Below, in pieces: positions 50,088 to 64,000 of a DNA stretch of 64,000 bases. Every line of letters begins with the position of its first letter. Positions within the stretch are counted from its first letter, which is position 1. The notes beneath the pieces were generated by a model. It saw only the letters and a program-made list of their open reading frames with translations, was not told the origin of the DNA and did not search any database. The translations under genes were made by a program, and so were the position numbers. Source of the DNA: Oscillospiraceae bacterium (lineage in GTDB: Bacteria; Bacillota; Clostridia; Oscillospirales; Oscillospiraceae); contig JAFTFT010000041.1 of assembly GCA_017458335.1 (NCBI GenBank), forward strand, positions 62,001-126,000, in the 5' to 3' direction.

Positions 50088-50738
50088 TCAGCCGTTCACA
50101 CAATAATGTGACAACAGCAGATCTTTCAGCATCATGAGCTCATTCTCCGGATCCGCGCCGGATTCCGGCACATAGACCAGGCCCACGGCATAGCGCGTAA
50201 CAGCCGCCAGCATGATGTGAAAGGATCCGGAAAACATCTCGACCTCCGGAATATCGCTCCGAAGCGTGCCGTCTTTCTGCCCCTTTTCATACAGAGTATG
50301 AAAAAGCTGCCCCAGATTGTCCACCATACGCATATAGGGCTGCTTCTGTTCCGCCGAGCCGTCCGCACTTCGCAGATAGCTGTTGAAGTCATAGTTAAAG
50401 CGGAGCAGATCGCCATGGTTGCGGTAGAGATCGAGAAAACCGTCCATGAAAAAGCGCAGATACTCTGCACCGCTCATCTCTTCTATCTCTTCCTGTGTCA
50501 GGAGCGCTCCATGACTTCGGATATACTCGTTCCACGTCCAGGTACCGATCGCCACCACCAGGTCCAGCTTGGTGGGGTAATAGCGGTAAACCGTCGCCCG
50601 TCCGACGCCGCTGGCCTCTGCCACCTCCGGCATGGTGACGCCCTCAATGCTCTTTTCGGAAAAGAGGCGGTACGCCTCCTCCAGAATCCTTTGCTGCCGC
50701 TCTATCTTCCAGGCTTTCCCACCGGTATAATCGTACAC
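50088..50738 (-). CDS. TetR-family transcriptional regulator
   Basis: Residues about 10-60 form a TetR helix-turn-helix (RILEEAYRLFSEKSIEGVTM, then EVAEASGVGRATVYRYYPTK). The C-terminal 150 residues are a helical ligand domain. I place the start at the GTG at 50738 (GGAG eight bases upstream), giving 216 residues, because the longer frame overlaps DUF4867 by 88 bases. It ends the minus arm of the sulfoquinovose cluster. It may control that cluster or the nearby alkylsulfatase promoter. Confidence 0.87.
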   Translation of the reverse strand: MYDYTGGKAWKIERQQRILEEAYRLFSEKSIEGVTMPEVAEASGVGRATVYRYYPTKLDLVVAIGTWTWNEYIRSHGALLTQEEIEEMSGAEYLRFFMDGFLDLYRNHGDLLRFNYDFNSYLRSADGSAEQKQPYMRMVDNLGQLFHTLYEKGQKDGTLRSDIPEVEMFSGSFHIMLAAVTRYAVGLVYVPESGADPENELMMLKDLLLSHYCVNG

Positions 50739-50755
50739 GCTCTGATCTCCAGGCG

Positions 50756-51424
50756 TCAGATCTTGAGCGCCAGGTTCTCGCCGGAGATGCCGACGAAGGC
50801 GCCGTTCTTCTGCTGGGGGGAATCGGGGTGGCAGGTCAGCCACTTGTTGCGCATCCAGAGCATCTTCTCCTCGCCCTCGGCGGAAGTGTTCACGGACGGC
50901 AGCGCCTCGTTGGTCCCCTTCTCAAGGATCACCAGGCAGCGGAAGCCGTCATCGGAGATGCGGCAGGGCGCAAAGTGCAGCACCAGCGGGAAGATCTCTA
51001 CCAGCACGCCCGCCGGCAGGTAGAAGCCGACGACATCCGCGCTGTCAAGTTTCCCGTCGTCCAGCTGCTCCGGCAGAGCCAGCAGCAGCACCAGACCGGT
51101 GGTGGTAAAGTTGACTTCACTGCACTTGTGATACTCCATGGCGTTGAGCTTGTACCCGCGGCCGTTGCAGAAGCCCGCTTCGATGGGCATGTCGCCGAAG
51201 ACGACGCGCTTCATGTCCTGCATGAGTGCAACCTCTTCGAGGACCGGAACGGAAGCCTGATAGCAGTTTCCTTCCGCGGGAATGGCACAGGTGTCCAGGG
51301 CCTTGGCAAGCTCAGCGGTCTCACCGGCAAGAACTCTGCCATAACGTTTAAACTCCGGATCGGTGACGCTGTAGAGCGGCAGGCCCGGATTCTTCTTCCG
51401 AAGCATTTCCAACATGGTATCCAT
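50756..51424 (-). CDS. DUF4867-family protein, probable cupin-type sugar enzyme
   Basis: The 222-residue protein matches DUF4867: PEFKRYGRVLAG, PIEAGFCNGRGYKLNAMEYH then KCSEVNFTTTGLVLLLALPE, and LVLHFAPCRI. The EYHKCSE and LHF segments place His and Glu residues as in a cupin metal site. Family members occur in sugar operons but have no established reaction known to me. Its start overlaps the ROK stop by one base (TAATG), tying it to the sulfoquinovose cluster; a mutarotase or isomerase step is plausible. Confidence 0.75.
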   Translation of the reverse strand: MDTMLEMLRKKNPGLPLYSVTDPEFKRYGRVLAGETAELAKALDTCAIPAEGNCYQASVPVLEEVALMQDMKRVVFGDMPIEAGFCNGRGYKLNAMEYHKCSEVNFTTTGLVLLLALPEQLDDGKLDSADVVGFYLPAGVLVEIFPLVLHFAPCRISDDGFRCLVILEKGTNEALPSVNTSAEGEEKMLWMRNKWLTCHPDSPQQKNGAFVGISGENLALKI

Positions 51425-52644
51425 TAGCGTATTCCTCCGTTGTCAATAAAGTTCTGAACCGCAAGCAGGCAGGCCGCACGGTCTTCCAGCTGCTGGTTGA
51501 ATTTGCTTTTCTCAATGACGACGTCGTGACGGGCGTCCACGCCCTCCTGCAGTTCGCTGATCAGGCGGGAGAGATAGTAGGAATCCTCAAACAGGCTGCC
51601 GTAGAGCACGATCTTTCCCGGATCGACCAGGTAGATCGCCGCTTTGATGGCGGTTCCCAGCGCCTGAATGGCGCGGTCCACAATTTCGGACGCCCCCTGG
51701 TCCCCGTTGCTTGCCGCCGCGAAAACGTCAAACACACTCAGACTCTCGGTGTCCCGGTCCCGGTACTTTCGCCAGAGCAGGGGCGTCTTTTCCTCCGAAA
51801 GCATCGCGATGGCATCTTCCCGGATCGATCCCGGCGACGCGATGGTCTCCAGGCATCCGCTCTTTCCGCAGTGACAGGGCTTTCCACCCCGGCGAATCAC
51901 CGGGATATGGCCGATCTCGGCGCACTGGGCGGTCACGCCGTGCCAGATCTTTCCGTCGATGGAGAGCGCCGCGCCGATGCCGTAGCCGCAGCGGATAAAT
52001 AGCTGCGAGCCCGTTGTCTCGTCCTGTGAGACAAACATCTGCGCCGCAAAAAGCGAACGGACGTTATTCTCCATCACGGTATGAAAGCCTGTCAGCTCTT
52101 CAAATTTCTCGCGGAGGGGATAATCCGTCTCCGCCAGCGCGCCGAAGCTGTTGCGCACGATCCGCCCGTCTTCCGAGGTGATGCCTCTCACCGCGACGCC
52201 GAGCCCGATCACGATCTCCCGCCGGATTCCGTTGTCTTCCATCAGCTGCAGCAGTCTCGCGGAGAGCCGTTCGGCGGTCGCTTCCGCCGGCGCTCTGGTT
52301 TCCAGCGGGACTTCCTCTGTGAAAATCACACGGCCGTCCAGCCAGACACCCGAAAGGATTGCCTGGCGAAGGTTGATCAGAACGCCGAGGCCGCAGGCAA
52401 CTTCCGCGTTGAGGTCGATCAGGATCTCCCTCCGGCCGGCATTGCTGCTGCTGAGCATCTCGCCTTCCATCAGCAGGCCGTCCGTGATCATCTCACCGAC
52501 GATCTTGGTGATGGCCGCCGGCGTCAGGTGCATGTTCTCCGCGAGGCGTTTGCGCGACATGGCGCCCTTCTCATGGAGAATCCGCAGCGCCGCGCTCCGG
52601 TTGCTGCGCTTCACGCTCATTAAGTTGTCGCCTTGATACGACAT
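51424..52644 (-). CDS. ROK-family transcriptional repressor (NagC/XylR type)
   Basis: The N-terminal winged helix (SAALRILHEKGAMSRKRLAE, then HLTPAAITKIVGEMI) binds DNA. The rest is a ROK domain with CHCGKSGCLETIASP, the zinc site of the family, and GYGIGAALSIDG. The 406-residue length is normal. Within the cluster it is the likely sulfoquinovose- or sulfofructose-responsive regulator of both divergent arms. A second ATG at 52620 is an alternative start. Confidence 0.9.
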   Translation of the reverse strand: MSYQGDNLMSVKRSNRSAALRILHEKGAMSRKRLAENMHLTPAAITKIVGEMITDGLLMEGEMLSSSNAGRREILIDLNAEVACGLGVLINLRQAILSGVWLDGRVIFTEEVPLETRAPAEATAERLSARLLQLMEDNGIRREIVIGLGVAVRGITSEDGRIVRNSFGALAETDYPLREKFEELTGFHTVMENNVRSLFAAQMFVSQDETTGSQLFIRCGYGIGAALSIDGKIWHGVTAQCAEIGHIPVIRRGGKPCHCGKSGCLETIASPGSIREDAIAMLSEEKTPLLWRKYRDRDTESLSVFDVFAAASNGDQGASEIVDRAIQALGTAIKAAIYLVDPGKIVLYGSLFEDSYYLSRLISELQEGVDARHDVVIEKSKFNQQLEDRAACLLAVQNFIDNGGIR

Positions 52645-52666
52645 AGGTACTCTCTTTCATGAACTC

Positions 52667-52687
52667 TTCCGCCCCTCCGGGGCGGAA
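52667..52687 (-). terminator. intercistronic hairpin upstream of the ROK gene
   Basis: TTCCGCCCC and GGGGCGGAA pair around TCC. An ATGCC-N7-GGCAT inverted repeat lies close by at 52701-52717. Confidence 0.45.
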
Positions 52688-52739
52688 AAGAAAAGATGAT
52701 ATGCCTTGACACGGCATAGGTTCTCTCGTTGGTTTGGGG

Positions 52740-53654
52740 TCAGGATTCTCTCGCCGGTCTGCCGCTGTGGTTGATGCGTCCGCGCTGCAGAATCACCGCC
52801 GCGCCCGCCAGCACCACCAGAATGCCCAGCAGCTTCTTGACCGTCAGATCCTCGTTCAGGAAGAACACGCCGATAAAGCAGCTCAGCACCGGCATCAGCA
52901 GCAGGTACAGCTTGACCAGCCAGACTTCGAAATGCTTGAGGTTGCGGTAGTAGAAGAAATAGATTCCCGTCTGGGCAAGCCCGCCCAGCGCCACCAGCCA
53001 CCAGAAGCCGCTTCCCATGTTCTGGGGGATATGGAACTCTCCGTGCAGCGCTGCGCTGCAGCCGAAGAGGATCAGCACCACGGCGTTGTTGTAATAGGAG
53101 ATCATGTCCGCGTCCTCGTGATACTTCTCCTGCGCCGCCTTGATGATGAAGGCGTTGGCGCTGACGCAGGCCGCCGACAGCAGGAAGTAGAGGTCCGTCA
53201 CATGAAGGGTCATTCCGCCGAAGTCCACCCCCAGCACCAGCAGCACGCCGCCGAGCATGATGGCCGTGCCGAGCCAGTCGGAGATGTAAAGCTTCTTGTG
53301 ATACAGGATCACCGTGGCAAGATTCACCATCAGCACGTCGGTCTTCAGCAGGGCCGTACCGGTGCTCAGAGAACCTCCGGCATAGCCGAGGTTTGCAAAC
53401 AGATCCAGAAGGAAGCCGAACACACCGATCAGAACCAGGATCCGAACCGCTTTCCCCTGATGAAAAAGCCGGCTGAAGTTCTTGTCCGCCAGAAGCTGCA
53501 CCGTCAGGAACGCCAGCGCCGCCGTGCGCAGGAGAAATCCGGCCATTCTGGCCGAGCCGGTGGCATCGACCACGATCTTGCTGACCGCGTAGTAGATCGA
53601 CCAGGACACCACCATCCCGATCACCATCAGGGTATATTTCAGGTCTTCCTTCAT
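52740..53654 (-). CDS. EamA/DMT-family transporter, candidate isethionate exporter
   Basis: The 304-residue protein starts at ATG 53654 (GGAAG upstream) and has ten hydrophobic segments in two EamA repeats (for example LMVIGMVVSWSIYYAVSKIV and LLMPVLSCFIGVFFLNEDLT). DMT proteins export small metabolites. It sits between the alcohol dehydrogenase and repressor genes of the sulfo-transketolase cluster. The sulfonate end product, isethionate, must leave the cell and no other exporter is present, so this is the best candidate. Substrate is inference. Confidence 0.85.
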   Translation of the reverse strand: MKEDLKYTLMVIGMVVSWSIYYAVSKIVVDATGSARMAGFLLRTAALAFLTVQLLADKNFSRLFHQGKAVRILVLIGVFGFLLDLFANLGYAGGSLSTGTALLKTDVLMVNLATVILYHKKLYISDWLGTAIMLGGVLLVLGVDFGGMTLHVTDLYFLLSAACVSANAFIIKAAQEKYHEDADMISYYNNAVVLILFGCSAALHGEFHIPQNMGSGFWWLVALGGLAQTGIYFFYYRNLKHFEVWLVKLYLLLMPVLSCFIGVFFLNEDLTVKKLLGILVVLAGAAVILQRGRINHSGRPARES

Positions 53655-53674
53655 GGCTGTACTTCCTTTATCAG

Positions 53675-53700
53675 GTTTCCCGCCCTTTCGGGCGGGAAAC
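53675..53700 (-). terminator. intercistronic hairpin upstream of the EamA gene
   Basis: GTTTCCCGCCC and GGGCGGGAAAC pair around TTTC. Confidence 0.5.
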
Positions 53701-53783
53701 AATGCATTCGACTATGATTGTGTTGCGACTCTATCAGGCAGGTTTCCCTATGATCTCGCGCAGGGTCTTCCCGTCTGTTTATC

Positions 53784-53810
53784 ACTCTCCCGCCCGCAGG
53801 GCGGGAGAGT
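53784..53810 (-). terminator. intercistronic hairpin after the alcohol dehydrogenase gene
   Basis: ACTCTCCCGCCC and GGGCGGGAGAGT pair around GCA, just after the dehydrogenase stop. Confidence 0.55.
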
Positions 53811-53820
53811 CATTTTTCTC

Positions 53821-54918
53821 TCAGGCGAGCTTCTCGAACATCTCGCGCAGGGCCTTTTCGTCCATATGCACGGGATTGTTGTTCATCAGGCCGTGTACCG
53901 CACAGTCATGGGCAAGCTTGTCGAGGTTGACCTCGCCCAGATCGCTGAGGCGGCTGCGGAGTCCGGCGAGCTTCTTGAGGGCCGCGATGCGCTGGGCCAG
54001 CTCTTCCGTGCCGGAGAGGCCAACTCTGCGGCAGAGGAGCTCCAGACGCTCGTCCGCGTTGATGCGCACGAAGCTGTCCAGGGTAAAGGCGCAGGCTTCG
54101 CCGTGAGGCAGATGATAGTCCTCAGAGAGAGGATAGCTGCAGGCGTGGCAGCCGGCGGTCTTCGGCAGCGCGAAGCTCAGTCCGCCAAGCAGCGAGGCAT
54201 AGGCCATATTGGCACGGGCTTCCATGTTGCCGCCGTCGGTGTAGGCCGTCTCGAGATTCTCGAGAATGGTGCGGACGGCTTCCACTGCCATGAGGTCGGA
54301 GATCGGCTGATGGTTCTTGCTCCAGTAGCCTTCCAGCGCGTGGGCCATGGCATCCAGACCGGTGTTCATGGTCGTGCGGGGCGGGACGGTGGAGCTCAGC
54401 ACGGGGTCGACGATGGCCACCTTGGGCATGAAGACCGGGTTGTTGATGGTCTTCTTCTCGGTCTCGTGGCTGATGACGGAGACCTGAGTCACTTCGCTGC
54501 CGGTTCCGGCCGTGGTCGGGACCGCGATGATGGTCAGGCGCTCTGCCGGGAAGGGCTTCTCCCCGTGATAGTATTCGATGGCTTCACCGTCGCCCAGGGC
54601 GATGGCCGCGGCAAACTTCGCCGTGTCGATGGCGCTGCCGCCGCCAATGCCGATGACGGCGTCGGCCTTGGTCTCGCGGGCCAGACGGGTGGTCTCAATC
54701 ACGCCGGAGAGCTGGGGGTTCTGCTCCACGCCGCCGAAGACGGCAACGATGCGGCTGTCCTTCTCCTGCATCTCCTTCGCCGTCGGAGCAAAGTGCTTCC
54801 CGCAGGCGATCACGCAGCGCTCCACGCCGAGCTCTTCGAGCACTTCACCGAGCTTTGCAAACTTTCCCTCGCCGAAGTAGATCTTGACCGGCTGGGAATA
54901 GACAAACTCATGCGCCAT
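53821..54918 (-). CDS. sqwF: iron-type alcohol dehydrogenase, probable sulfoacetaldehyde reductase
   Basis: The 365-residue group III alcohol dehydrogenase has the nucleotide loop IGGGSAIDTAK and PTTAGTGSEVT, and metal ligands Asp189, His193 (GLDAMAHALEGYW), His258 and His272 (GCHACSYPL, PHGEAC). In the published sulfo-transketolase route (recalled as SqwF) such an enzyme reduces sulfoacetaldehyde to isethionate, recycling NADH. The start (ATG 54918, GAGGCG upstream) lies inside the end of the isomerase gene, an 11-base overlap. Substrate assignment rests on the cluster. Confidence 0.83.
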   Translation of the reverse strand: MAHEFVYSQPVKIYFGEGKFAKLGEVLEELGVERCVIACGKHFAPTAKEMQEKDSRIVAVFGGVEQNPQLSGVIETTRLARETKADAVIGIGGGSAIDTAKFAAAIALGDGEAIEYYHGEKPFPAERLTIIAVPTTAGTGSEVTQVSVISHETEKKTINNPVFMPKVAIVDPVLSSTVPPRTTMNTGLDAMAHALEGYWSKNHQPISDLMAVEAVRTILENLETAYTDGGNMEARANMAYASLLGGLSFALPKTAGCHACSYPLSEDYHLPHGEACAFTLDSFVRINADERLELLCRRVGLSGTEELAQRIAALKKLAGLRSRLSDLGEVNLDKLAHDCAVHGLMNNNPVHMDEKALREMFEKLA

Positions 54919-55384
54919 AGATGTTCGCCTCAATCTCGTTGACCTTGGCCGCGAACTTGTGCATGTTGGCAGCGCGCCAGTCTTCCAGATCCTGGCACCA
55001 GTCGGTGGCGAGGAAGGTCTTGACCATCTCGACGGCCATTTCCGGTCCGACAATCCATCCGCCCATGCACAGGACGTTTGCGTTGTTGATGGCGCGGGCC
55101 ATCTTGGCGGAGTAGACGCCTTCGCAGGCAACGGCGTAGACGCCCTTGTACTTGTTTGCAACAACGGACATGCCGGCGCCGGTGCCGCAGATCAGGACGG
55201 CCTTGTCATAGGTACCGTTCTGAACCAGGGGAGCAACCTCGCTCGCAACCTGATAATAGGGGTGAACCTGCTCGAGATCGGTGGTGCCGAGATCGTCGAA
55301 CTCAACGCCTGCTTCAGTCAGATAGGCCTTGATGGCTTCTTTTGCGGAAAAACCGGACTTGTCGCTGCCGATTGCAATTTTCAT
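54908..55384 (-). CDS. sqwI: RpiB/LacB-family isomerase, probable 4-deoxy-4-sulfoerythrose isomerase
   Basis: The 158-residue protein starts at ATG 55384 (GAGGAG upstream). It has the RpiB fold with GSDKSGFSAKEAIK (where RpiB usually has GSDHAGF) and catalytic Cys67 in ICGTGAGMSVVANK, then MGGWIVGPEMA. In the sulfo-transketolase route an RpiB-like SqwI converts sulfoerythrose to sulfoerythrulose so that transketolase can act a second time. A ribose-5-phosphate isomerase role remains possible, but split-transketolase and sulfoquinovosidase neighbours favour the sulfonate role. Confidence 0.8.
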   Translation of the reverse strand: MKIAIGSDKSGFSAKEAIKAYLTEAGVEFDDLGTTDLEQVHPYYQVASEVAPLVQNGTYDKAVLICGTGAGMSVVANKYKGVYAVACEGVYSAKMARAINNANVLCMGGWIVGPEMAVEMVKTFLATDWCQDLEDWRAANMHKFAAKVNEIEANIYGA

Positions 55385-55425
55385 GATGTGAAACTCCTCA
55401 TTCATTATAATAATAAGTTAATAAG

Positions 55426-55450
55426 AATCCCGCCCCGCAGGGGCGGGATT
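55426..55450 (-). terminator. intercistronic hairpin after the transketolase subunit gene
   Basis: AATCCCGCCCC and GGGGCGGGATT pair around GCA between the transketolase and isomerase genes. Confidence 0.55.
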
Positions 55451-55462
55451 TGGATGATTGAA

Positions 55463-56386
55463 TTACTTCAGGGTAACTGCCTTTTTGGCGCTGGCGACGA
55501 TGTTCTCGACCGTAAGGCCGGTGACTTCGCGCAGATACGGCAGCTTGCCGACTTCGCCGAAGTGATCCTGAACGCCGACGGCGACCACGGGGATCTTCTC
55601 CATGGCGAGGGCTTCGAGAACGGCGGACTGCAGGCCGCCGATGACGTTGTGGTTCTCCACGGTCAGGACCGCGCCGGTCTTGCGGGCGGAAGCCACAACG
55701 GCGCCCTTGTCGATGGGCTTAATGGTGTGGATGTTGATGATCTCGGCGTCAATGCCTTCCTCGGCGAGCTTCTTGGAAGCTTCGATGACATCGGCGGTCA
55801 GCATGCCGGTGACGAAGATCGTGAGATCCTTGCCCTCTTTGATGGTGTCGGCCTTGAAGAGGTCGAACTTGTAGCCTTCGTCGAAGACCTTCGGCAGCTC
55901 CTTGCGGAACAGGCGGACATAGACCGGTCCGTCGTACTCGTTCAGGACGGGCATGGCGGCGCGGAGCTGAACCTCATCAACCGGCTCAAAGATAACGACG
56001 CCGGGGATGGAGCGGACAACGCCGATGTCTTCCATGCTCATGTGGGTACCGCCGTTGAGCTCGGCCGCAATGCCGGGGTCGGTGCCGACGATCTTCACGT
56101 TGCGCTTGGCATAGGAGATGGAAATCGCGATCTGATCGCAGATGCGGCGGGTGGCAAACGGAGTGAAGCTCTCGATCCAGGGCTTGAAGCCATAGCTGGA
56201 GAGGCCGGCCGCGATGGAGGCCATATCCTGCTCGGCAACGCCGCAGTCAAAGCTCTGCTCGGGGAACTTGGCGCGCAGGCCCAGCGTGCCGCTGGCTTTT
56301 CCAAGGTCCGCGTCAAGAATGACGACGTGCTTGTCTTTTTCCATCATTTCCGCGAGGCACGCGGCATAAACAGCTCTCATTTCCAT
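55463..56386 (-). CDS. transketolase C-terminal subunit (sulfo-transketolase)
   Basis: The 307-residue protein covers the pyrimidine-binding and C-terminal domains of transketolase. Glu52 in GVAEQDMASIAAGL is the TPP-activating glutamate. TDPGIAAELNGGTHMSMEDI and VENHNVIGGLQSAV are conserved. It works only with the N-terminal subunit encoded four bases upstream. In the cluster it is expected to move two-carbon units from sulfofructose and sulfoerythrulose to glyceraldehyde 3-phosphate (SqwGH in the literature as I recall). Confidence 0.9.
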   Translation of the reverse strand: MEMRAVYAACLAEMMEKDKHVVILDADLGKASGTLGLRAKFPEQSFDCGVAEQDMASIAAGLSSYGFKPWIESFTPFATRRICDQIAISISYAKRNVKIVGTDPGIAAELNGGTHMSMEDIGVVRSIPGVVIFEPVDEVQLRAAMPVLNEYDGPVYVRLFRKELPKVFDEGYKFDLFKADTIKEGKDLTIFVTGMLTADVIEASKKLAEEGIDAEIINIHTIKPIDKGAVVASARKTGAVLTVENHNVIGGLQSAVLEALAMEKIPVVAVGVQDHFGEVGKLPYLREVTGLTVENIVASAKKAVTLK

Positions 56387-56389
56387 GGA

Positions 56390-57217
56390 TTAGTCCTCCC
56401 CTCTGATTTCACGAATGGCCGCTTCGGCCTGCTCTTCGCTGACCGGGCAGTTGTGGTTGCCGGAGCCCATGTCTTCGATCCACTTGACGCCGCAGCCCTT
56501 CAGGGTGTTCAGGATGATCATGGTGGGCTTTCCGCTGTCGCGGCCGAGCTTGGCATGCTCAACAGCCTGCTCAACCTGCTCCACGTCGTTGCCGTCTTCC
56601 ACGTCGATGACGTTCCAGCCGAACGCGGCCCATTTCTCGGCCAGCGGGGCGATGTCATTGACCTCGGCGACGGTGCCGTCGATCTGCTGCTTGTTGTAAT
56701 CGGTAAAGGCAATCAGGTTGTCCAGCTTCTTCGCCGCAGCGAACATGGCTGCTTCCCAGATCTGGCCTTCCTGGCTCTCGCCGTCGCCGATCATGGTGTA
56801 GATCGTTGCGCCGTCCTTCTCGAGCTTGGAGCCCAGCGCCACGCCGACTGCGCAGCTGAAGCCCTGGCCGAGGGAACCGGTGGTCATGTCGATGCCGGTG
56901 GTGCGGTTCATATCGCAGTGGGAGGGAAGATTGGTGCCGCCCTGGTTCAGGGTGAGCAGTTCCTTCTTGTCAAAGTAGCCGCGGTTGGCCAGCGTCGCAT
57001 AGACGGCCGGGCCGGCGTGGCCCTTGGAGCAGATAAAGCGGTCGCGGCCTTCCATCTTCGGGTTGGCCGGGTCGATGTTCATTTCTTTAAAATACAGGAC
57101 AGCAAGCGCTTCCACAACGGACAGGCAGCCGCCGATGTGGCCGACACCCAGGTGTCCGATGCAGGTCATGATATCACAGCGGATATCTTTGCAGACTTCT
57201 TTCAGATCGTAGCTCAA
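56390..57217 (-). CDS. transketolase N-terminal subunit (sulfo-transketolase)
   Basis: The 275-residue protein is the TPP-binding half: GHLGVGHIGGCLSVVEAL, ICSKGHAGPAVY, GSLGQGFSCAVG and the TPP/magnesium motif GDGESQEGQIWEA with Asn175 in DYNKQQIDG. It opens the minus operon behind a consensus promoter, with AGGAGGAGG upstream. Split transketolases are common in Clostridia; assignment to sulfosugar substrates comes from linkage to the isomerases and sulfoquinovosidase. Confidence 0.9.
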   Translation of the reverse strand: MSYDLKEVCKDIRCDIMTCIGHLGVGHIGGCLSVVEALAVLYFKEMNIDPANPKMEGRDRFICSKGHAGPAVYATLANRGYFDKKELLTLNQGGTNLPSHCDMNRTTGIDMTTGSLGQGFSCAVGVALGSKLEKDGATIYTMIGDGESQEGQIWEAAMFAAAKKLDNLIAFTDYNKQQIDGTVAEVNDIAPLAEKWAAFGWNVIDVEDGNDVEQVEQAVEHAKLGRDSGKPTMIILNTLKGCGVKWIEDMGSGNHNCPVSEEQAEAAIREIRGED

Positions 57218-57314
57218 TGGAATTTCCTCCTCCTTGATGTTTCATCACAAATGATTCGATGATTCAGGAAACGCTGTCGAAGCAGAATTTGATTAAAGCT
57301 TCTAAGCAATTCAG

Positions 57315-57343
57315 AGTGTACCGCCTTTTGTCGGTTTTGTCAA
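57315..57343 (-). promoter_or_regulatory. promoter of the minus arm (transketolase operon)
   Basis: Minus-strand TTGACA (57338-57343) and TACACT (57315-57320) with a 17-base spacer; leader about 90 bases. Confidence 0.82.
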
Positions 57344-57397
57344 TAGGTATTTTGGATTTTTCTGAAAATGCTTTTTCATCATTTCCAAAAATAAAGC

Positions 57398-57426
57398 TTG
57401 ACAGTTTCGTCCGGAGAAGCTATGAT
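57398..57426 (+). promoter_or_regulatory. promoter of the plus arm (SQ isomerase operon)
   Basis: TTGACA (57398-57403) and TATGAT (57421-57426) with a 17-base spacer. The 54 bases between the two divergent -35 boxes are AT-rich and could hold shared operator sites, but I see no convincing palindrome. Confidence 0.85.
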
Positions 57427-57463
57427 ACTTCACAGCGTTAAACAATTTTAGGAGGTATTTTTC

Positions 57464-58801
57464 ATGAGCTTCTGTTCTGTCTATATCCCGGTGGGTGTCC
57501 CCACCTATCATCTGGAAACCGCTCAGGATCATTTTGAGCGCTCCTGCGCCATGCTGCGCGGGGTGGATCCCGACTTCGTCTGCCCGGACGAGATGCTGCT
57601 CACGCTCGACAAGCTGCGCGCCTATCTCGACGGTCTGAATCCGGACCTGATCGTGTTCCAGAATCTGACCTTTGCCAATGCCGCCTATATGGCCGAAGTG
57701 CTGCGCCGCTATAACTGCCCGATGCTGCTCTGGACGCTGCGCGAGCCCGTCATTGACGGCGGACGCCTCCGTCTGAACTCTCTGACCGGTGCCTATTCTG
57801 CCGCCAACACCCTCGCCGCCTTTGACGGCCGCGCCTTCAACTGGTGCTTCGGCGCCCCCGAGGAGGAGTCCGTTGTCTCCGCCGTGAAGGCCACCGTGGA
57901 AGCCGCCAAGGTCAAGAAGGCCATGCGCAGCCTGACCATGTCCGCCATCGGCCATACGCCCCAGGGCTTCGGTTTCGGCCGTGCGCTGGACAGCGAGCTG
58001 ATGAACACCTTCGGCGTGGAGCTTGAGTCCATCGAGGCCCGCGAGCTCATCGACATGGCCAAGACCTATACGGACGAAGAGTGCGCCGCATATCTGCGTG
58101 ACACCGAAAGCTGCACCTGCGGCCTGGACAAGACTCCGGAGCACAACCGGAATGATCACGCCCGCCTGCTCAAGGCTTATCGGGACTATGTCCGGACGCA
58201 TCACATCGGCGCTCTGGCTTCCCGCTGCTGGCCCGACTTCTTCACTTCCTTCGGTACGCCGGTCTGCACCGTGCTCAGCATGCTGAACGACGAGGGCGTC
58301 GCTGCCGCCTGCGAGGCCGATATCTACGGCGCGCTCTCCATGTGGATCGGCATGCAGCTGTCGAAGGAACCCGTCTTCTTCGGTGATCCGGTTGCGCTGG
58401 ACGAAGAAGAGAGTTCCATCACCTACTGGCACTGCGGCGCCGCCGCCTGCAGTCTCGCCCGCAAGGACACCGGCGCCGTCGTCGGCGTACATCCCAACCG
58501 CAAGATCGGCCCCGCCATGGACTTTGGCTGCGAAGCCTTCCCCGAGGCCACGATCTTCCGCATCGGCCGCAAGCCCGACGGCAGCTTCCGCTTCTTTGTC
58601 GCGGAGGGTTCCGTTCTCGATAAGCCGAAGCAGTTCATCGGCACGTCCATCGTGGTCAAGACCGACCGCAACAGCAAAGAGGTTGTCGAGGACAGCATCC
58701 GCTCCGGCTTCGAGCCGCACTTTGCCGTCATCAAGGGCCATCACGCCGAGACCCTGAAGGTTCTGGCCGAGATGTTCGGTTTTGAAGTCTGCAAGTATTG
58801 A
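57464..58801 (+). CDS. sqvD: sulfoquinovose isomerase (L-fucose isomerase superfamily)
   Basis: The 445-residue protein has the fucose/arabinose-isomerase superfamily layout, including PDLIVFQNLTFANAAYMAEV, ASRCWPDFFTSFGTPVCTVL then LNDEGVAAACEADIYGALSM with the metal-site glutamate/aspartate region, and ITYWHCGAAACSLA. In the sulfo-transketolase pathway a member of this superfamily, SqvD, converts SQ to 6-deoxy-6-sulfofructose. Its pairing with the GH31 sulfoquinovosidase gene next door and its divergent promoter support this. AGGAGGTATTTTTC precedes the ATG. The exact sugar remains inferred. Confidence 0.82.
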   Translation: MSFCSVYIPVGVPTYHLETAQDHFERSCAMLRGVDPDFVCPDEMLLTLDKLRAYLDGLNPDLIVFQNLTFANAAYMAEVLRRYNCPMLLWTLREPVIDGGRLRLNSLTGAYSAANTLAAFDGRAFNWCFGAPEEESVVSAVKATVEAAKVKKAMRSLTMSAIGHTPQGFGFGRALDSELMNTFGVELESIEARELIDMAKTYTDEECAAYLRDTESCTCGLDKTPEHNRNDHARLLKAYRDYVRTHHIGALASRCWPDFFTSFGTPVCTVLSMLNDEGVAAACEADIYGALSMWIGMQLSKEPVFFGDPVALDEEESSITYWHCGAAACSLARKDTGAVVGVHPNRKIGPAMDFGCEAFPEATIFRIGRKPDGSFRFFVAEGSVLDKPKQFIGTSIVVKTDRNSKEVVEDSIRSGFEPHFAVIKGHHAETLKVLAEMFGFEVCKY

Positions 58802-58815
58802 TTTGATGTTCCGGC

Positions 58816-58840
58816 CGCTCTCCCCTCTCGCGGGAGAGCG
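58816..58840 (+). terminator. intercistronic hairpin between SQ isomerase and sulfoquinovosidase genes
   Basis: CGCTCTCCC and GGGAGAGCG pair around a short CTCTCGC loop; no T tract. Confidence 0.5.
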
Positions 58841-58873
58841 TTCCAATATCACCTCTGGAAAAGGGAGCCTTTT

Positions 58874-60886
58874 ATGAAACTGATCAACAATCTTTCCGAC
58901 TGGCGTCTGGAGCGTCACGGTGAAACCCTTCTGCGCTCCTCAGGGGCCTTCCCCATGATTTTCGTCGGCTGTGGGCAGGAGTCCGTCGACATGTACCGCG
59001 GCAACTTCAAGATCGAGGACTATGTCATCGAACGCCGCGCGCTTTCACTTACCGCCCTGCATGAGCAGTCTGACGGCGCCGTGCTGGAATTCGGCGATGA
59101 CCTTACGGTGCATGTGACCTTAGAAGGCGACTGCGCCGTGCTGCGCTTTACACAGAAGAACCCGGACATCAACCGCGTCTGGTTCCGCGTCCCCGCCCAG
59201 AAGGACGAATGCTGCTGGGGCTGCGGCGAGCAGATGTCTTACTTCAATCTGCGCGGGCGCCACTTCCCCCTCTGGACCTCGGAGCCGGGTGTCGGGCGCG
59301 ACAAGACCACCTATGTGACCTGGCGTTCGGATGTGGAGAACAAGGCCGGCGGCGATTATTACAACACCAACTTCCCCCAGCCCACCTATGTCTCCAGCCG
59401 GCACTACTACCTGCATGCCGACACCACGGCCTATGCGGATTTCGACTTTCGGCATGAGGATTTCCACGAGCTGCAGTTCTGGGAGGTTCCCGCTTCCATC
59501 CGTGTCGAGGCCGCGGATACCTTCCTTAACCTTTTGAAGAAGGAGACGGCCTTCTTTGGTCGCCAGCCTGAGCTTCCCGACTGGATCTACAACGGGCTCA
59601 TCATCGGTGTGCAGGGTGGAAGCGAGCGCTCCTTCGGCCTGCTGGAAAATACCCTGCGGCATAACATCAAGGTCTCCGGCGTCTGGTGCCAGGACTGGTG
59701 CGGCAAGCGCGTCACTTCCTTCGGCAAGCGCCTGCAGTGGGACTGGCATTTTCATCCGGAGATGTACCCGGATCTCCCTGTCGAGATTGAAAAGCTTCAC
59801 GCCAAGGGAATCAAGTTCCTGGGCTACGTCAATCCCTACCTGGTGGAAGACGGCATGCTTTATCAGAAAGGTCTGGAAGCGGATGTCTTTGCCCGCCGGA
59901 GCGACGGCAGCGTCTATCTGGTTGACTTCGGCGAATTCAACTGCGGCGTCATCGACCTGACGGATCCCAAAGCCTTTAACTGGTTCAAGGACGAAGTCAT
60001 CAAAAAGTACAGCCTGGACATCGGGATCGACGGCTGGATGGCGGACTTCGGCGAATATCTGCCCACGGACGACATTGTTCTGCACAGCGGAAAGAGCCCC
60101 ATGATCGAGCACAACCACTGGCCCGCGCTCTGGGCCAAGTGCAACTACGACGCCGTCTCCGAAGCCGGAAAGCTCGGCGAAGTGGTCTATTTCATGCGCG
60201 CCGGCTTTACCGGCAGCCAGAAGTTCTGCACCCTGCTCTGGGCCGGGGATCAGAGCGTTGACTTCTCGCGCCACGACGGCCTCTGCACGGTCATCAGCGC
60301 CGCGCTGAGCGCCGGTATGAGCGGCTGCGGCCTGACCCACAGCGACATCGGCGGCTATACCAGTCTCTTCGACAATACCCGCACCAAGGAAGTCTTCCTC
60401 CGCTGGGCCGAGATGGCGGCCTTTACCCCGGTCATGCGCACCCACGAAGGCAACCGTCCGGACACCAATTTCCAGTACTATGACGACGAGGACTGCATGA
60501 ACCGCCTGGCCCGCCTGGTCGATATCTACACTTCTCTCGCTCCCATGCTGAAGGAGCTGGTCAAAGAGAACCACGAGAGCGGTATCCCGGTGCAGCGTCC
60601 CCTTTTCCTCCATCACGAAGATGATCCCCGCTGCTACACGGAGCAGTTCGAGTATCTGCTGGGCGAAGACGTTCTGGTCGCGCCGGTCTGGCAGGCTGAA
60701 CAGACGGAGCGCAGCGTCTATCTCCCCGAGGGCGAGTGGATTCATCTCTGGACCGGAAACTCTTATGGTCAGGGCGATCATACCGTCCCGGCTTCTCTGG
60801 GAGACACACCCGTGTTCTACCGGAAGGGCTCCCGCTGGGCAAGCCTGATGGAGGACATCCGCGCCCGTTTTACGCAACAGCATTAA
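58874..60886 (+). CDS. GH31 sulfoquinovosidase
   Basis: The 670-residue enzyme hydrolyses alpha-sulfoquinovosides such as SQ-glycerol. The catalytic nucleophile is Asp391 in GWMADFGEYLPTD and the acid/base is Asp459 in LWAGDQSVDFS, both in the same sequence contexts as E. coli YihQ. The sulfonate-recognition stretch reads WCQDWCGKRVTSFGKRLQWDW; Gln273, Arg286 and Trp289 align with YihQ Gln288, Arg301 and Trp304, the diagnostic residues. There is no signal peptide, so the glycoside must be imported first. AAGGGAG lies upstream. Confidence 0.95.
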   Translation: MKLINNLSDWRLERHGETLLRSSGAFPMIFVGCGQESVDMYRGNFKIEDYVIERRALSLTALHEQSDGAVLEFGDDLTVHVTLEGDCAVLRFTQKNPDINRVWFRVPAQKDECCWGCGEQMSYFNLRGRHFPLWTSEPGVGRDKTTYVTWRSDVENKAGGDYYNTNFPQPTYVSSRHYYLHADTTAYADFDFRHEDFHELQFWEVPASIRVEAADTFLNLLKKETAFFGRQPELPDWIYNGLIIGVQGGSERSFGLLENTLRHNIKVSGVWCQDWCGKRVTSFGKRLQWDWHFHPEMYPDLPVEIEKLHAKGIKFLGYVNPYLVEDGMLYQKGLEADVFARRSDGSVYLVDFGEFNCGVIDLTDPKAFNWFKDEVIKKYSLDIGIDGWMADFGEYLPTDDIVLHSGKSPMIEHNHWPALWAKCNYDAVSEAGKLGEVVYFMRAGFTGSQKFCTLLWAGDQSVDFSRHDGLCTVISAALSAGMSGCGLTHSDIGGYTSLFDNTRTKEVFLRWAEMAAFTPVMRTHEGNRPDTNFQYYDDEDCMNRLARLVDIYTSLAPMLKELVKENHESGIPVQRPLFLHHEDDPRCYTEQFEYLLGEDVLVAPVWQAEQTERSVYLPEGEWIHLWTGNSYGQGDHTVPASLGDTPVFYRKGSRWASLMEDIRARFTQQH

Positions 60887-60945
60887 GTTTCGTTTTTGTG
60901 CAATCTATCCAATTTCTTTTCTTCTCTTTAGGCACATTCGCACAA

Positions 60946-60974
60946 TTGACAAACAGTTTGCACGAGAGTAAAAT
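60946..60974 (+). promoter_or_regulatory. internal promoter of the TTT transporter genes
   Basis: TTGACA (60946-60951) and TAAAAT (60969-60974), spacer 17 bases. The leader carries an AT-rich repeat (61001-61028, ATTAATTAAT on both sides of a CGATTG core) that may be an operator. Confidence 0.75.
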
Positions 60975-61102
60975 GATACCATTGAATTGTTTAAAGCTGT
61001 TTATTAATTAATTCGATTGATTAATTAATCGGCTGCATCTTCTTCCCCCTGTGATTAAGGCATCTGCCTTGTCAAATATATTTTTCCATTAGGAGGAACC
61101 AA

Positions 61103-62122
61103 ATGAAAAACCTGAAGCGCGTTCTCCCCATGCTGCTGGTTCTGGTCATGGTCTTTGCCCTGGCTGCCGGCACAACCGCTTTCGCCGCCGGCGAGACGGT
61201 TAAGATCATCTGCCCCTACGGCGCAGGCGGTGTTGCGGACCTGGTTACCCGTGAGTATGCCAAGGCTGCCAACAATGTTCAGTCCGACTACAACTTCATC
61301 GTTGAGAACCTGACCGGCGGTGACGGTTTCGTCGCCAACGCCACCTTCTCCGAGGAAGATCCCAGCACCATGGATCTGCTCGTCATGGGCTACGGCGTCT
61401 GCTACAGAGTCGACGCTGCTGCCAAGTATGACACCGAAGAAGTCGATTTCGATCTGACCAAGAACGTCCCCTTCTGCACCATCGATGACCGTACCTGGAT
61501 CATGTTCGGCGCACCCGGCACCACCCTCGCTGATGTCCTTGCCAAGGCCAAGGACGGCGGCATCAAGATGTCCGGCGGCAACCCCCTGTCCGACCCGCAC
61601 CTGGCTCTCGGCACCCTGATCCTCGCCGAGGGCGGCAAGGTTCAGCCCATCCCCTATGACGGCGGTGCTGAGCAGAAGAAGGGCCTGACCGATGGTGAAG
61701 TCGACGTCTTCGTCGGCGGCTCCCCGGTTACCAAGGCTGACGTGGAAGCCGGAACCCTCGTTCCGCTGCTTGCCTTCTCTGACAAGCCCTTCGAAGGCTT
61801 CGTCGGCCCCGACGGCAATGCCATTTCCGTTCCATGCATCTGCGGTGAGGGCAAGGCTCCCGAGCTGAATGCCGACAACGACTACAGCGCCAGCATTCTC
61901 GCCGGCGGCGGCGGTCTCGCCACCCACGAAGGCTGCGATCCTGCTTTCCGCGATGCCATGACCGAGATCGCCAAGCAGGTCTGGGCGGATGAAGAGTTCT
62001 CCGGCTGGGTTGAAGACTCCCTGCTCAACAACTTCCAGAAGTACGGTGACGACGCGGTCAGCTTCTACACCGAAGCCCGCGAGAAGGCCATGAACGCCTA
62101 CGCCATCCTCTTCGGCGAGTAA
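61103..62122 (+). CDS. TctC-family solute-binding protein of a TTT transporter
   Basis: The 339-residue protein has a signal peptide (MKNLKRVLPMLLVLVMVFAL, cut near AFAAG) and the TctC (Bug) fold: KIICPYGAGGVADLVTREYA, VENLTGGDGFVANA and LTDGEVDVFVGGSPV. There is no lipobox cysteine. TctC proteins capture carboxylates and related anions for TctAB. Its place directly behind the sulfoquinovosidase gene suggests sulfoquinovose, SQ-glycerol or another sulfonate as ligand. AGGAGGAACCAA precedes the start. Confidence 0.9.
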   Translation: MKNLKRVLPMLLVLVMVFALAAGTTAFAAGETVKIICPYGAGGVADLVTREYAKAANNVQSDYNFIVENLTGGDGFVANATFSEEDPSTMDLLVMGYGVCYRVDAAAKYDTEEVDFDLTKNVPFCTIDDRTWIMFGAPGTTLADVLAKAKDGGIKMSGGNPLSDPHLALGTLILAEGGKVQPIPYDGGAEQKKGLTDGEVDVFVGGSPVTKADVEAGTLVPLLAFSDKPFEGFVGPDGNAISVPCICGEGKAPELNADNDYSASILAGGGGLATHEGCDPAFRDAMTEIAKQVWADEEFSGWVEDSLLNNFQKYGDDAVSFYTEAREKAMNAYAILFGE

Positions 62123-62149
62123 TACGCAACACGAAACACCAGCTCATAT

Positions 62150-62188
62150 GGCTGATGGGCTGAAAAATGCCCATCAGCCCCTTTTTTC
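62150..62188 (+). terminator. attenuating terminator between tctC and tctB
   Basis: GGCTGATGGGC and GCCCATCAGCC form a perfect 11-base stem followed by CCTTTTTT. Partial termination would favour binding-protein synthesis. Confidence 0.85.
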
Positions 62189-62240
62189 CGTAAAAACCCC
62201 GTTAAGATGCTTGCTCCCGGGAGAGAGAGAAAGGATTCCC

Positions 62241-62705
62241 ATGAAAATCAAGATTAAAACCAATTTGGTTTCGGGTATTCTCATGGCTCTGTTCAGCGGA
62301 TATATGTTGTATGTCATGCCGAAGCAGGTCAAGGTACCCGCCTATGATTCCGGTGCGCCAAGTCCCCGGATCATCCCCGGCATTTGTCTTATTGTCATTC
62401 TGATCTGCTCGGTCGTTCTGATCATTGAGAGTCTGATCTTTAAGAAGGAAAAGATCGTCGAGTTCGACTGGAACAATGAGAAGCCTGCCATCCTTCTGAT
62501 CGCCATTCTCTGCATCTATGTTTTCCTGATCATCAAAATCGGCTTCGTCCTGGCTTCTGCCATCACCTTTACCGTTGTTCTTTTTTACTGCGGAGAGCGC
62601 AAACCCTTTATTTACATCTTTACCATCGCTTTGGCCGTTGGTATTTACTTCCTGTTTACCAAGGTGTTTCACGTCTCCCTGCCTGCCGGGCTTCTGCCGT
62701 TTTAA
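62241..62705 (+). CDS. TctB-family small membrane subunit of a TTT transporter
   Basis: The 154-residue protein starts at ATG 62241 (GAAAGGATT upstream) and has four membrane segments: LVSGILMALFSGYMLYV, IIPGICLIVILICSVVLIIE, ILLIAILCIYVFLIIKIGFV and YIFTIALAVGIYFLFTKVF. The IIPG motif in the first loop is typical of TctB. It pairs with TctA encoded 12 bases downstream. Confidence 0.85.
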   Translation: MKIKIKTNLVSGILMALFSGYMLYVMPKQVKVPAYDSGAPSPRIIPGICLIVILICSVVLIIESLIFKKEKIVEFDWNNEKPAILLIAILCIYVFLIIKIGFVLASAITFTVVLFYCGERKPFIYIFTIALAVGIYFLFTKVFHVSLPAGLLPF

Positions 62706-62717
62706 GGAGGAGAACGT

Positions 62718-64000
62718 ATGGATTTTACAATGATTACACAGGCTGCCGTGCAGACCTTCACGTTATATAACATCGCTTTGATTTTCGGAGGCCTCCTGAT
62801 CGGCATGGTCATCGGCTGCATCCCCGGCCTGAGCGTTACGCTCGGTATCATCCTGATGCTTCCGTTGACTTATAACATGGAGGATGCGGCTTCCGCCATT
62901 ATCCTGATGCTGGCGGTTTACGTCGGCGGCATGTACGGCGGCTCCATCTCCGCCATCACGCTGAACACCCCCGGCACCAACTCCGCCATTGCCACGACCT
63001 TTGACGGCTATCCCCTTGCCCGGAAAGGCAAGGTCAAAAAGGCCCTGGACGTATCCCTCTTCGCTTCCACCTTTGGCGGTCTCTTCTCGGCGCTGCTGCT
63101 TCTGCTTTGCGCCCAGCTCATCACCAAGGCCGTATCGAAGTTCACTTCGGTCGAGTATTTCGCCCTCGGCATCATGGGCATCTCGCTGATCGCCGGCGTC
63201 TCCGGCGAGAGCCTGCCGAAGGCCCTGATCTCCGGTATGCTGGGTCTTCTGATGGCCTGCATCGGAAAAGACTCGGTCACCGGCGTCAGCCGCTATGCTT
63301 TCGGTTCGAACGTTCTGCGTTACGGTATCAACATTCTGCCCGCCATGATCGCCCTGATCGCTCTGATGCAGGTCGTCGACAAGCTGCGGGAGTTCCGGAT
63401 CTCCGGCGGCAAGATCAAGGACGCCAATAAGATCGACAATGACGGCATGACCGGGCCGGAGACCAAGAGCATCCTGCCCGCCTGCTTCAAGTCCTCCGCC
63501 ATCGCCTCCATTCTCGGCGCGATGCCCGGCGTCGGCGGCGGTGTGGCCCAGTTCATGTGCTACAACGAAGTCCGTCGTTCCTCCAAGCATCCGGAAGAAT
63601 TCGGCAAGGGCTGCCTCGAGGGCATCGCTGCGGCTGAGTCCTCCAACAACGCGGTCGTCGGCTCTGCCATGATCCCGCTGCTGACCCTCGGCATTCCGGG
63701 CGACGGCGTCACCGCGCTGCTGCTGGGCGCTTTCATGCTTCACGGCATCACCCCCGGCCCCACGATGTTCACCAAGCAGGGCGTCATGGCCTATACGATC
63801 ATCCTGGGCTGCCTGGTTGCCAACATCTTCCTCTTCCCCATCGGAAAAGCGCTGACCCGTGCGGTGGCCAAGGTCATCCAGGTCCGCTACACCTACCTCG
63901 CCTGCGCGATCATCATGTTCTGCTTCGCCGGCGCGTTTGCAGCCTCCGGCCACGTGAAGGAACTGATTCTGACCGCCGCCATCCTGATTCTGAGCTACGT
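62718..64000 (+). CDS. TctA-family large membrane subunit of a TTT transporter (3' end beyond window)
   Basis: The frame opens at ATG 62718 (AAGGAGGAG upstream) and stays open to the window edge, 427 codons of an expected roughly 500. TctA signatures are present: GMVIGCIPGLSVTLGIILML, VGGMYGGSISAITLNTPGTN (with the PGTP-like glycine loop), AMPGVGGGVAQFM and MIPLLTLGIPGDGVTALLLG. It forms the ion-coupled channel of the transporter. The partial 3' end is due only to the window boundary. Confidence 0.95.
   Translation, partial: MDFTMITQAAVQTFTLYNIALIFGGLLIGMVIGCIPGLSVTLGIILMLPLTYNMEDAASAIILMLAVYVGGMYGGSISAITLNTPGTNSAIATTFDGYPLARKGKVKKALDVSLFASTFGGLFSALLLLLCAQLITKAVSKFTSVEYFALGIMGISLIAGVSGESLPKALISGMLGLLMACIGKDSVTGVSRYAFGSNVLRYGINILPAMIALIALMQVVDKLREFRISGGKIKDANKIDNDGMTGPETKSILPACFKSSAIASILGAMPGVGGGVAQFMCYNEVRRSSKHPEEFGKGCLEGIAAAESSNNAVVGSAMIPLLTLGIPGDGVTALLLGAFMLHGITPGPTMFTKQGVMAYTIILGCLVANIFLFPIGKALTRAVAKVIQVRYTYLACAIIMFCFAGAFAASGHVKELILTAAILILSY

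Follow-up and report, generated by a model that had tools for sequence, protein, structure and literature searches.

The window, as we call the whole 64,000-nucleotide stretch analysed here, belongs to a metagenome-assembled genome (MAG) of 2.95 Mb, 84% complete, assigned to the Oscillospiraceae, and carries at its right end (50756-64000) a divergent cluster of the sulfo-transketolase (sulfo-TK) type, a predicted route for the breakdown of sulfoquinovose (SQ), the sugar of plant sulfolipids. Its two arms are separated by a gap of 246 bp. From the centre outward, the minus arm encodes the two halves of a split transketolase (N-terminal, then C-terminal), an RpiB-like isomerase, a metal alcohol dehydrogenase, an EamA permease, a ROK protein and a DUF4867 protein; the plus arm encodes a fucose-isomerase-type enzyme, a GH31 glycosidase and the three subunits TctC, TctB and TctA of a tripartite tricarboxylate transporter (TTT), followed by an aldose 1-epimerase. 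TctA runs past the window end into the adjoining part of the contig, which we call L083. The genes are:

50756..51424, minus strand: DUF4867 cupin (SqvB/SftX), a proposed sulfosugar mutarotase or ring-opener (PF16161, 226.9 bits)
51424..52644, minus strand: ROK-family repressor, which may bind the operator described below (PF00480, 131.3 bits, and a MarR-type helix-turn-helix)
52740..53654, minus strand: EamA/DMT permease, which may export isethionate (SqwE role; PF00892)
53821..54918, minus strand: metal alcohol dehydrogenase, putative sulfoacetaldehyde reductase (SqwF role; best solved match 6JKO)
54908..55405, minus strand: RpiB-like isomerase (PF02502, 148.9 bits; Lys/Ile signature)
55463..56386, minus strand: transketolase C-terminal half (putative SqwH role; Asp/Asn signature)
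56390..57217, minus strand: transketolase N-terminal, ThDP-binding half (putative SqwG role; PF00456, 168.3 bits; TTG start with AGGAGGAGG upstream)
57464..58801, plus strand: putative sulfoquinovose isomerase (SqvD/SftI role; NF048012)
58874..60886, plus strand: putative GH31 sulfoquinovosidase of the YihQ/SftG type (PRK10426, 953 bits against a cut-off of 553)
61103..62122, plus strand: TctC-like solute-binding protein (PF03401)
62241..62705, plus strand (alternative ATG at 62148): TctB small membrane subunit (PF07331, 69.5 bits)
62718..64000, plus strand, continuing to 64406: TctA large membrane subunit (PF01970, 425.8 bits; full ORF of 562 amino acids on L083)

The original prediction had listed the GH31 enzyme, the fucose-isomerase-like enzyme, the split transketolase, the RpiB-like isomerase and the alcohol dehydrogenase, all of which were found; DUF4867, ROK, EamA and TctCBA are additions to that list. 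It had also drawn the cluster from 50088 to 64000, an extent which holds except for its left edge: the TetR gene at 50088-50738 has no listed match in the other 80 loci, was dropped as a candidate regulator and probably lies outside the cluster.

These loci come from a single scan of named genome contigs and are the best 80 of 99 confirmed ones. Their genes were called with a codon-scored caller, adopted in place of longest-ORF calling, which was discarded for its shadow ORFs. SqvD was recovered in 77 of the 80 (78 with the window); the three loci where it was missed (L065, L077 and L080) were left out of per-locus counts. Synteny was counted over 49 loci, namely 48 of the 80 plus the window, each with at least eight genes called upstream of the isomerase. 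On the strand opposite to the isomerase, both transketolase halves and the RpiB-like gene stand in 45 of the 49, the dehydrogenase in 42, EamA in 40, ROK in 34 and DUF4867 in 30. Because these opposite-strand partners recur in most of the loci, the arrangement is not due to chance. The order of the core genes is kept among relatives, and the uptake side is the variable part. Every record title of the relatives that names a host names a ruminant; the ruminant gut is thus the most likely source habitat, which bears out, in narrower form, the earlier suggestion of a gut bacterium.

The GH31 enzyme is supported as a sulfoquinovosidase by both its relatives and its aligned residues. Its Q247, Q273, R286, W289, D391, D459 and Y495 align with Q262, Q288, R301, W304, D405, D472 and Y508 of E. 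coli YihQ, a set that includes the sulfonate-binding Gln, Arg and Trp and the two catalytic Asp; the Gln273, Arg286 and Trp289 of the original prediction were exact, and its two catalytic Asp are D391 and D459. The roles of these YihQ residues, Asp405 excepted, are those we take them to have. The best solved match in the PDB is 6PNR (1111.7 bits). This is SftG from E. rectale, a demonstrated sulfoquinovosidase with published activity and inhibitor complex; the same source names Asp405 of YihQ as catalytic (PMC11968277).

Not all relatives carry this type of glycosidase. Among 68 aligned GH31 copies, 30 have the Arg of the window enzyme, 37 have Gln in its place and one is unreadable. The Gln-type copies (e.g., L048:13607-15520, minus strand, beside the same core) form a YihQ-like clade, 33-41% identical to the window GH31, with Gln for Arg301 and Phe for Tyr508. 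They also keep different company: Gln-type GH31 is found with a GPH symporter in 28 loci (mixed loci included), with an ATP-binding cassette (ABC)-type importer alone in none and without a recognised importer in 6, and Arg-type GH31 with an ABC-type importer or TctCBA in 22 loci, with GPH alone in none and without a recognised importer in 4. The Gln-type enzymes may act on another substrate or bind SQ in a novel manner; our literature search found no publication tied to them.

Among solved structures, the dehydrogenase is closest to 6JKO (260 bits, with 152.8 for the runner-up), the sulfoacetaldehyde reductase BkTauF, in which the mutations T257A and F265A abolish activity and F252A leaves about 28% (PMC6616044). 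The window enzyme has F249, T254 and Y262 at the positions of TauF F252, T257 and F265, the numbering of the 6JKO chain being offset by 5 from that of the paper, as judged by the metal-binding His pair. According to the same paper, a number of homologues have Tyr at TauF position 265. At least 95% of 49 dehydrogenase copies keep the pocket Phe and Thr, and the metal ligand Gln196 of TauF is replaced by His193, like in other family members. By its family and its BkTauF-type substrate residues, the enzyme qualifies as a predicted sulfoacetaldehyde reductase.

The split transketolase is distinct from the housekeeping enzymes. Alignment with the human and C. hydrogenoformans enzymes showed that His416 of human transketolase is Asp and Asp424 is Asn in all 63 minus-strand core copies, and that the Ser345 position is Ala in 59 of them and Ser in 4. 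We take these positions to be substrate contacts. The genome contains five other transketolase-like matches, all at most 37% identical to the cluster enzyme, the value reached by the best own paralogues; the two own paralogues that were aligned read S/H/D and A/N/E at Ser345/His416/Asp424. Transketolases of the L100, L114 and L115 clusters, at 45-48% identity, read A/D/N, and the paralogues L116 and L117 (36-40%), from the genomes of these clusters, read H/D at the last two positions; the Asp/Asn pair is therefore absent from all four transketolase-like paralogues compared. A transketolase tree was set aside as evidence, the own paralogues sitting on very long branches; its seven rows labelled 'other' are the core genes of L065 and L074 (by a distance rule), the second copies of L040, L041 and L047 and the two own paralogues. 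Those second copies, on the plus strand at the start of their loci, are split transketolases 42-50% identical to that of the window, bear the same Asp/Asn signature and adjoin a malic-enzyme-like gene, named by reading its sequence.

A comparable change is seen in the RpiB-like isomerase; the genome gave no second match to the RpiB family. Relative to the E. coli enzyme, all 57 copies have His10 replaced by Lys and His99 by Ile, and they keep the Cys66 and Thr68 positions. In the E. coli numbering used here, His99 is taken to open the sugar ring; residue 99 is Asn in the reference chain 2VVR and His in 1NN4, the second E. coli chain. Since 4-deoxy-4-sulfoerythrose has no 4-OH and would form no furanose, a ring-opening His would be dispensable, and its loss is what the pathway predicts. 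The residue tests thus speak for a transketolase and an RpiB-like isomerase that are specialised enzymes, their changes being absent from the ordinary forms compared.

The fucose-isomerase-type enzyme, encoded divergently from the transketolase, scores 37.0 bits with PF02952 (cut-off 29.3), and SftI (NF048012) is its only NCBIfam match. A PDB search returned no sequence match for it at E 0.001. Within the genus, 91 of 102 genomes contain some match to this isomerase and 66 a strong one (best E at most 1e-170). A separate group of loci (L076-L082, titled Mogibacterium or uncultured Clostridiales) combines a SqvD-like isomerase of 65-66% identity with a Gln-type GH31; no core transketolase gene was matched in their fetched flanks, and the best N-half matches of these seven genomes are at 47-48%.

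Taken together, the cluster very probably encodes the sulfo-TK route from SQ to isethionate, as the original prediction had it; this reading is supported by the SftG match, the SftI family, the BkTauF pocket and the residue signatures. It would allow an anaerobic Oscillospiraceae-like bacterium to ferment SQ. The GH31 sulfoquinovosidase would release SQ from its glycosides and the fucose-isomerase-type enzyme would convert it to 6-deoxy-6-sulfofructose, from which the dedicated split transketolase would transfer a two-carbon unit to glyceraldehyde-3-phosphate, leaving 4-deoxy-4-sulfoerythrose. The RpiB-type isomerase would turn the latter into its ketose, to be cut by the same transketolase to sulfoacetaldehyde, which the metal alcohol dehydrogenase would reduce to isethionate. 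Export would probably proceed via the EamA permease, and indeed a drug/metabolite permease has been suggested as exporter in Faecalicatena (PMC11659671). For DUF4867, a role has only been proposed, and the authors detected no mutarotation activity (PMC9594981, PMC11968277). We infer that this organism excretes isethionate and feeds neighbours with it; a capacity to desulfonate isethionate itself was rejected, the one pyruvate formate-lyase-like glycyl radical enzyme found being closest to glycerol dehydratase and HplG (matches at E of at most 1e-100). A sulfo-transaldolase (sulfo-TAL) branch was also rejected for this genome: no transaldolase match was obtained (0 of 1, in a MAG 84% complete), with controls positive in 10 of 14. 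Of the SqwD/SqwKL sulfoacetate branch, nothing was found among the cluster genes scanned, the rest of the genome not having been searched.

Two observations weigh against this pathway: the isomerase, at 382 bits, fails the SftI equivalog cut-off of 700, and the dehydrogenase stays under every listed NCBIfam cut-off, scoring 175.5 against 700 with the SarD model. The Faecalicatena isomerase of the sulfo-TK type is also far from SftI, at 32% identity to SOS1 (PMC11659671), and the low SarD score is consistent with the fact that the two reductases TauF and SarD share just 28% identity (PMC6616044). One could also suppose that the transketolase and the RpiB-like protein are ordinary pentose-phosphate enzymes and that SQ is cleaved in another way, by sulfo-TAL or sulfo-EMP2. 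Their best solved matches are indeed an ordinary split transketolase (6YAJ) and an ordinary RpiB, and no chain named SqwGH or SqwI is among the matches. The residue changes, present in 63 of 63 and 57 of 57 copies and missing from the transketolase-like paralogues that were aligned, together with the failure to find a transaldolase match in the genome or, among the scanned genes of the cluster, any sugar kinase or aldolase, render this explanation very improbable. Nor do we give much credit to the idea that the cluster degrades the glycoside of another 6-substituted sugar, an idea encouraged by the many loci where the same core adjoins a Gln-for-Arg301 GH31 and a GPH symporter: the window GH31 has the full sulfoquinovosidase residue set, identity to the window isomerase is 65-93% in loci of either kind, and the dehydrogenase retains the sulfoacetaldehyde-reductase pocket.

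Candidate regulatory sites would connect the core of the cluster with its uptake side:

57315..57343, minus strand: promoter-like site of the catabolic operon (TTGACA-17-TACACT, 10/12)
57398..57426, plus strand: promoter-like site of isomerase and GH31 (TTGACA-17-TATGAT, 11/12)
57432..57445, minus strand: operator-like site TTGTTTAACGCTGT, a match to TTNNTTAAMGCTGT
60946..60974, plus strand: promoter-like site of tctCBA (TTGACA-17-TAAAAT, 11/12)
60987..61000, plus strand: operator-like site TTGTTTAAAGCTGT before tctC, the second match to TTNNTTAAMGCTGT

The promoter scan returned 8 sites in 14 kb, with 4.5 expected in shuffles, which by itself is weak evidence. The operator pattern TTNNTTAAMGCTGT has exactly two matches in the 2.95 Mb genome, one in the divergent promoter and the other upstream of tctC; the reversed control pattern has one. 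Upstream regions were then scored with a weight matrix built from 13 core-promoter sites, and sites of at least 12 bits within 250 bp were counted. The operator was detected upstream of the ABC binding protein (15 of 15 loci) and upstream of TctC (4 of 4), compared with 6 of 495 for other genes and 20 of 950 for shuffled importer regions. The same scan found none before permeases, TctB, TctA, DUF624, GH31 or GPH genes. Upstream of SqvD, the operator was present in 19 of 28 Arg-type loci and in 29 of 77 loci overall, counts which are partly circular as they overlap the training set; it is mostly missing from the core promoter of Gln-type loci (SqvD, 1 of 30). In several ABC loci, overlapping matches on both strands read as a 21-bp palindrome, TTAATTAAC-N3-GTTAATTAA; such a shared palindrome was looked for before the GPH symporter and none was seen (operator score, 0 of 33). 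The regulator is most likely the ROK protein, which would bind at the divergent promoter and again before tctCBA.

The three transporter genes form one operon in the order C-B-A, with TctA and TctB above their Pfam cut-offs and TctC just under. The window TctC has a signal-like start and no lipobox-like Cys; in the alignment, its L100 relative has an ACG motif there. Within the genus, 5 of 102 genomes have a relative of this TctC. A sample of 300 genomes from the family yielded 3, two of which belong to other genera; these two also hold SqvD (64-65%) and a signature-bearing transketolase. A YihQ-type GH31, 68-100% identical to that of the window, stands directly before TctC in all eight loci, from three genera (the window, L009, L010, L060, L099, L100, L108 and L109; the L099 contig carries only the C-terminal part of the GH31). 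In L100, L108 and L109, DUF4867 precedes the GH31, whose residue set is complete. With L099 counted (12.7 bits), the operator precedes tctC in 5 of these 8 loci. Over the 78 loci, the uptake labels were ABC-type only in 20, GPH only in 28, TctCBA in 4, ABC-type plus GPH in 6 and none in 20, 4 of the last lying on short contigs (up to about 6 kb). The ABC label is a generous one, a binding protein or permease being present in 16 of 26 loci and only a DUF624/MusI-like companion gene in the rest.

On the strength of the GH31 linkage (8/8) and of the operator common to the core promoter (5/8), which in relatives precedes the ABC binding protein (15/15), we consider TctCBA the probable importer of SQ or its glycosides, where close relatives would use an ABC importer. 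Extending this, TctCBA would more likely than not carry SQ or sulfoquinovosyl-glycerol as part of a swappable glycosidase-importer module, in which ABC or TctCBA goes with the Arg-type GH31 under one operator, and a third module, GPH with the Gln301-type GH31 on the same core, may represent a new kind of sulfoquinovosidase. Several findings count against the importer assignment. The TctC score of 24.7 bits is below the Pfam cut-off of 27; the operator was found neither before tctC in the three more distant loci L100, L108 and L109, which include the two from other genera, nor, in L100, upstream of SqvD; one of 49 EamA genes has an operator site too; and the score was trained on core-promoter sites, so that only the importer counts are independent.

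TctCBA might, with a smaller but appreciable chance, import another acid and merely fall under the same regulator. More broadly, and about as tentatively, it could be a bystander, or a carrier of a carboxylate or of a sulfonate such as sulfolactate that co-occurs with SQ, the latter entering through an unlinked transporter. TTT substrates known so far are mostly carboxylates. The rarity of this TctC type (the 5/102 and 3/300 given above) and the missing site in three distant loci would fit this explanation, as would the TTT system SlcHFG, which handles sulfolactate (PMC5812351). It is opposed by the position of TctC directly after a YihQ-type GH31 in every one of the eight loci across three genera, by the five close loci sharing the operator of the core promoter and of the relatives' ABC importer, and by the reported TTT importer of alginate, an acidic oligosaccharide (PMC13390454). 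The sequence itself shows the gene families, the residue signatures, the synteny, the shared site and the linkage; from these we infer all substrates, the direction of transport and which protein is the regulator.

Other sulfo-TK systems help to separate what is new. The pathway of Clostridium sp. MSTE9 was reportedly established by Liu et al. in 2021. Compared by description, its genes sqvD, sqwGH, sqwI, sqwF and sqwE (PMC9594981, PMC12890257, PMC11659671) represent the same enzyme families as in the window and lead to the same predicted product, isethionate, but an ABC permease gene is numbered beside that cluster (PMC11659671), whereas in the window TctCBA follows the glycosidase. The bifurcated sulfo-TK/sulfo-TAL system of Faecalicatena shares the split transketolase, SqwI, reductase, DMT permease and a candidate SQ mutarotase, and adds transaldolases and an ABC importer (PMC11659671), unlike the window genome with its lack of a transaldolase match. 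Habitat and pathway genes are shared with the clusters of Ca. Limivicinus, Caproiciproducens and Neosphaerochaeta from a rumen study (PMC13219744). In its microcosms, isethionate was measured and its excretion and cross-feeding are reported; sqwG, sqwH and sqwI were transcribed by Ca. Limivicinus, Caproiciproducens and Sphaerochaetaceae. The legend of the study's cluster figure names YihQ and DUF4867 (SftX), as in the window, and the transporters SmoE and SmoFGH; its retrieved text mentions neither 'tripartite tricarboxylate' nor 'EamA'. The pathway and its occurrence in the rumen are thus already published and not new. New here are the apparent importer swap to TctCBA, with its predicted transport role, and the operator it shares with the core. 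SlcHFG and the Vibrio alginate TTT belong to the same transporter family as TctCBA and carry a sulfonate and an acidic sugar oligomer, respectively (PMC5812351, PMC13390454), neither being linked to SQ uptake in the retrieved portions of these papers. In the searchable literature (bioRxiv and most subscription papers excluded), sulfoquinovose and 'tripartite tricarboxylate' met only in PMC10507020, whose retrieved text treats the transporter as a putative importer of sulfolactate and has sulfoquinovose only in a reference.

Two neighbouring genes deserve mention. The gene after tctA (L083:2515-3555, plus strand; likewise L060:7689-8729) encodes a GalM-type aldose 1-epimerase, so that the cluster has two candidate mutarotases, DUF4867 and this PF01263 epimerase. 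Its assignment as an SQ mutarotase of the YihR type was rejected on its scores: 304 bits with TIGR02636 (cut-off 397.65), 284 with PRK11055 (cut-off 240) and 19 with PRK15172, which we take to be the YihR model. To the left of the cluster (47252-49228, minus strand) lies an alkyl-sulfatase-type protein of the metallo-beta-lactamase fold, with a signal-like start and the domains Alkyl_sulf_dimr and Alkyl_sulf_C, possibly a second sulfur-ester function.

Should the Gln301-type GH31 enzymes not be sulfoquinovosidases, yihQ surveys resting on family membership could miscount them, since the one that was scanned passes the PRK10426 cut-off. The Asp/Asn signature of the transketolase and the Lys/Ile signature of the RpiB-like isomerase may serve to separate dedicated sulfo-TK enzymes from housekeeping ones in metagenomes. 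Finally, if TctCBA is indeed the importer, it would add a new transporter family to sulfoglycolysis and widen the known cargo of the TTT family.

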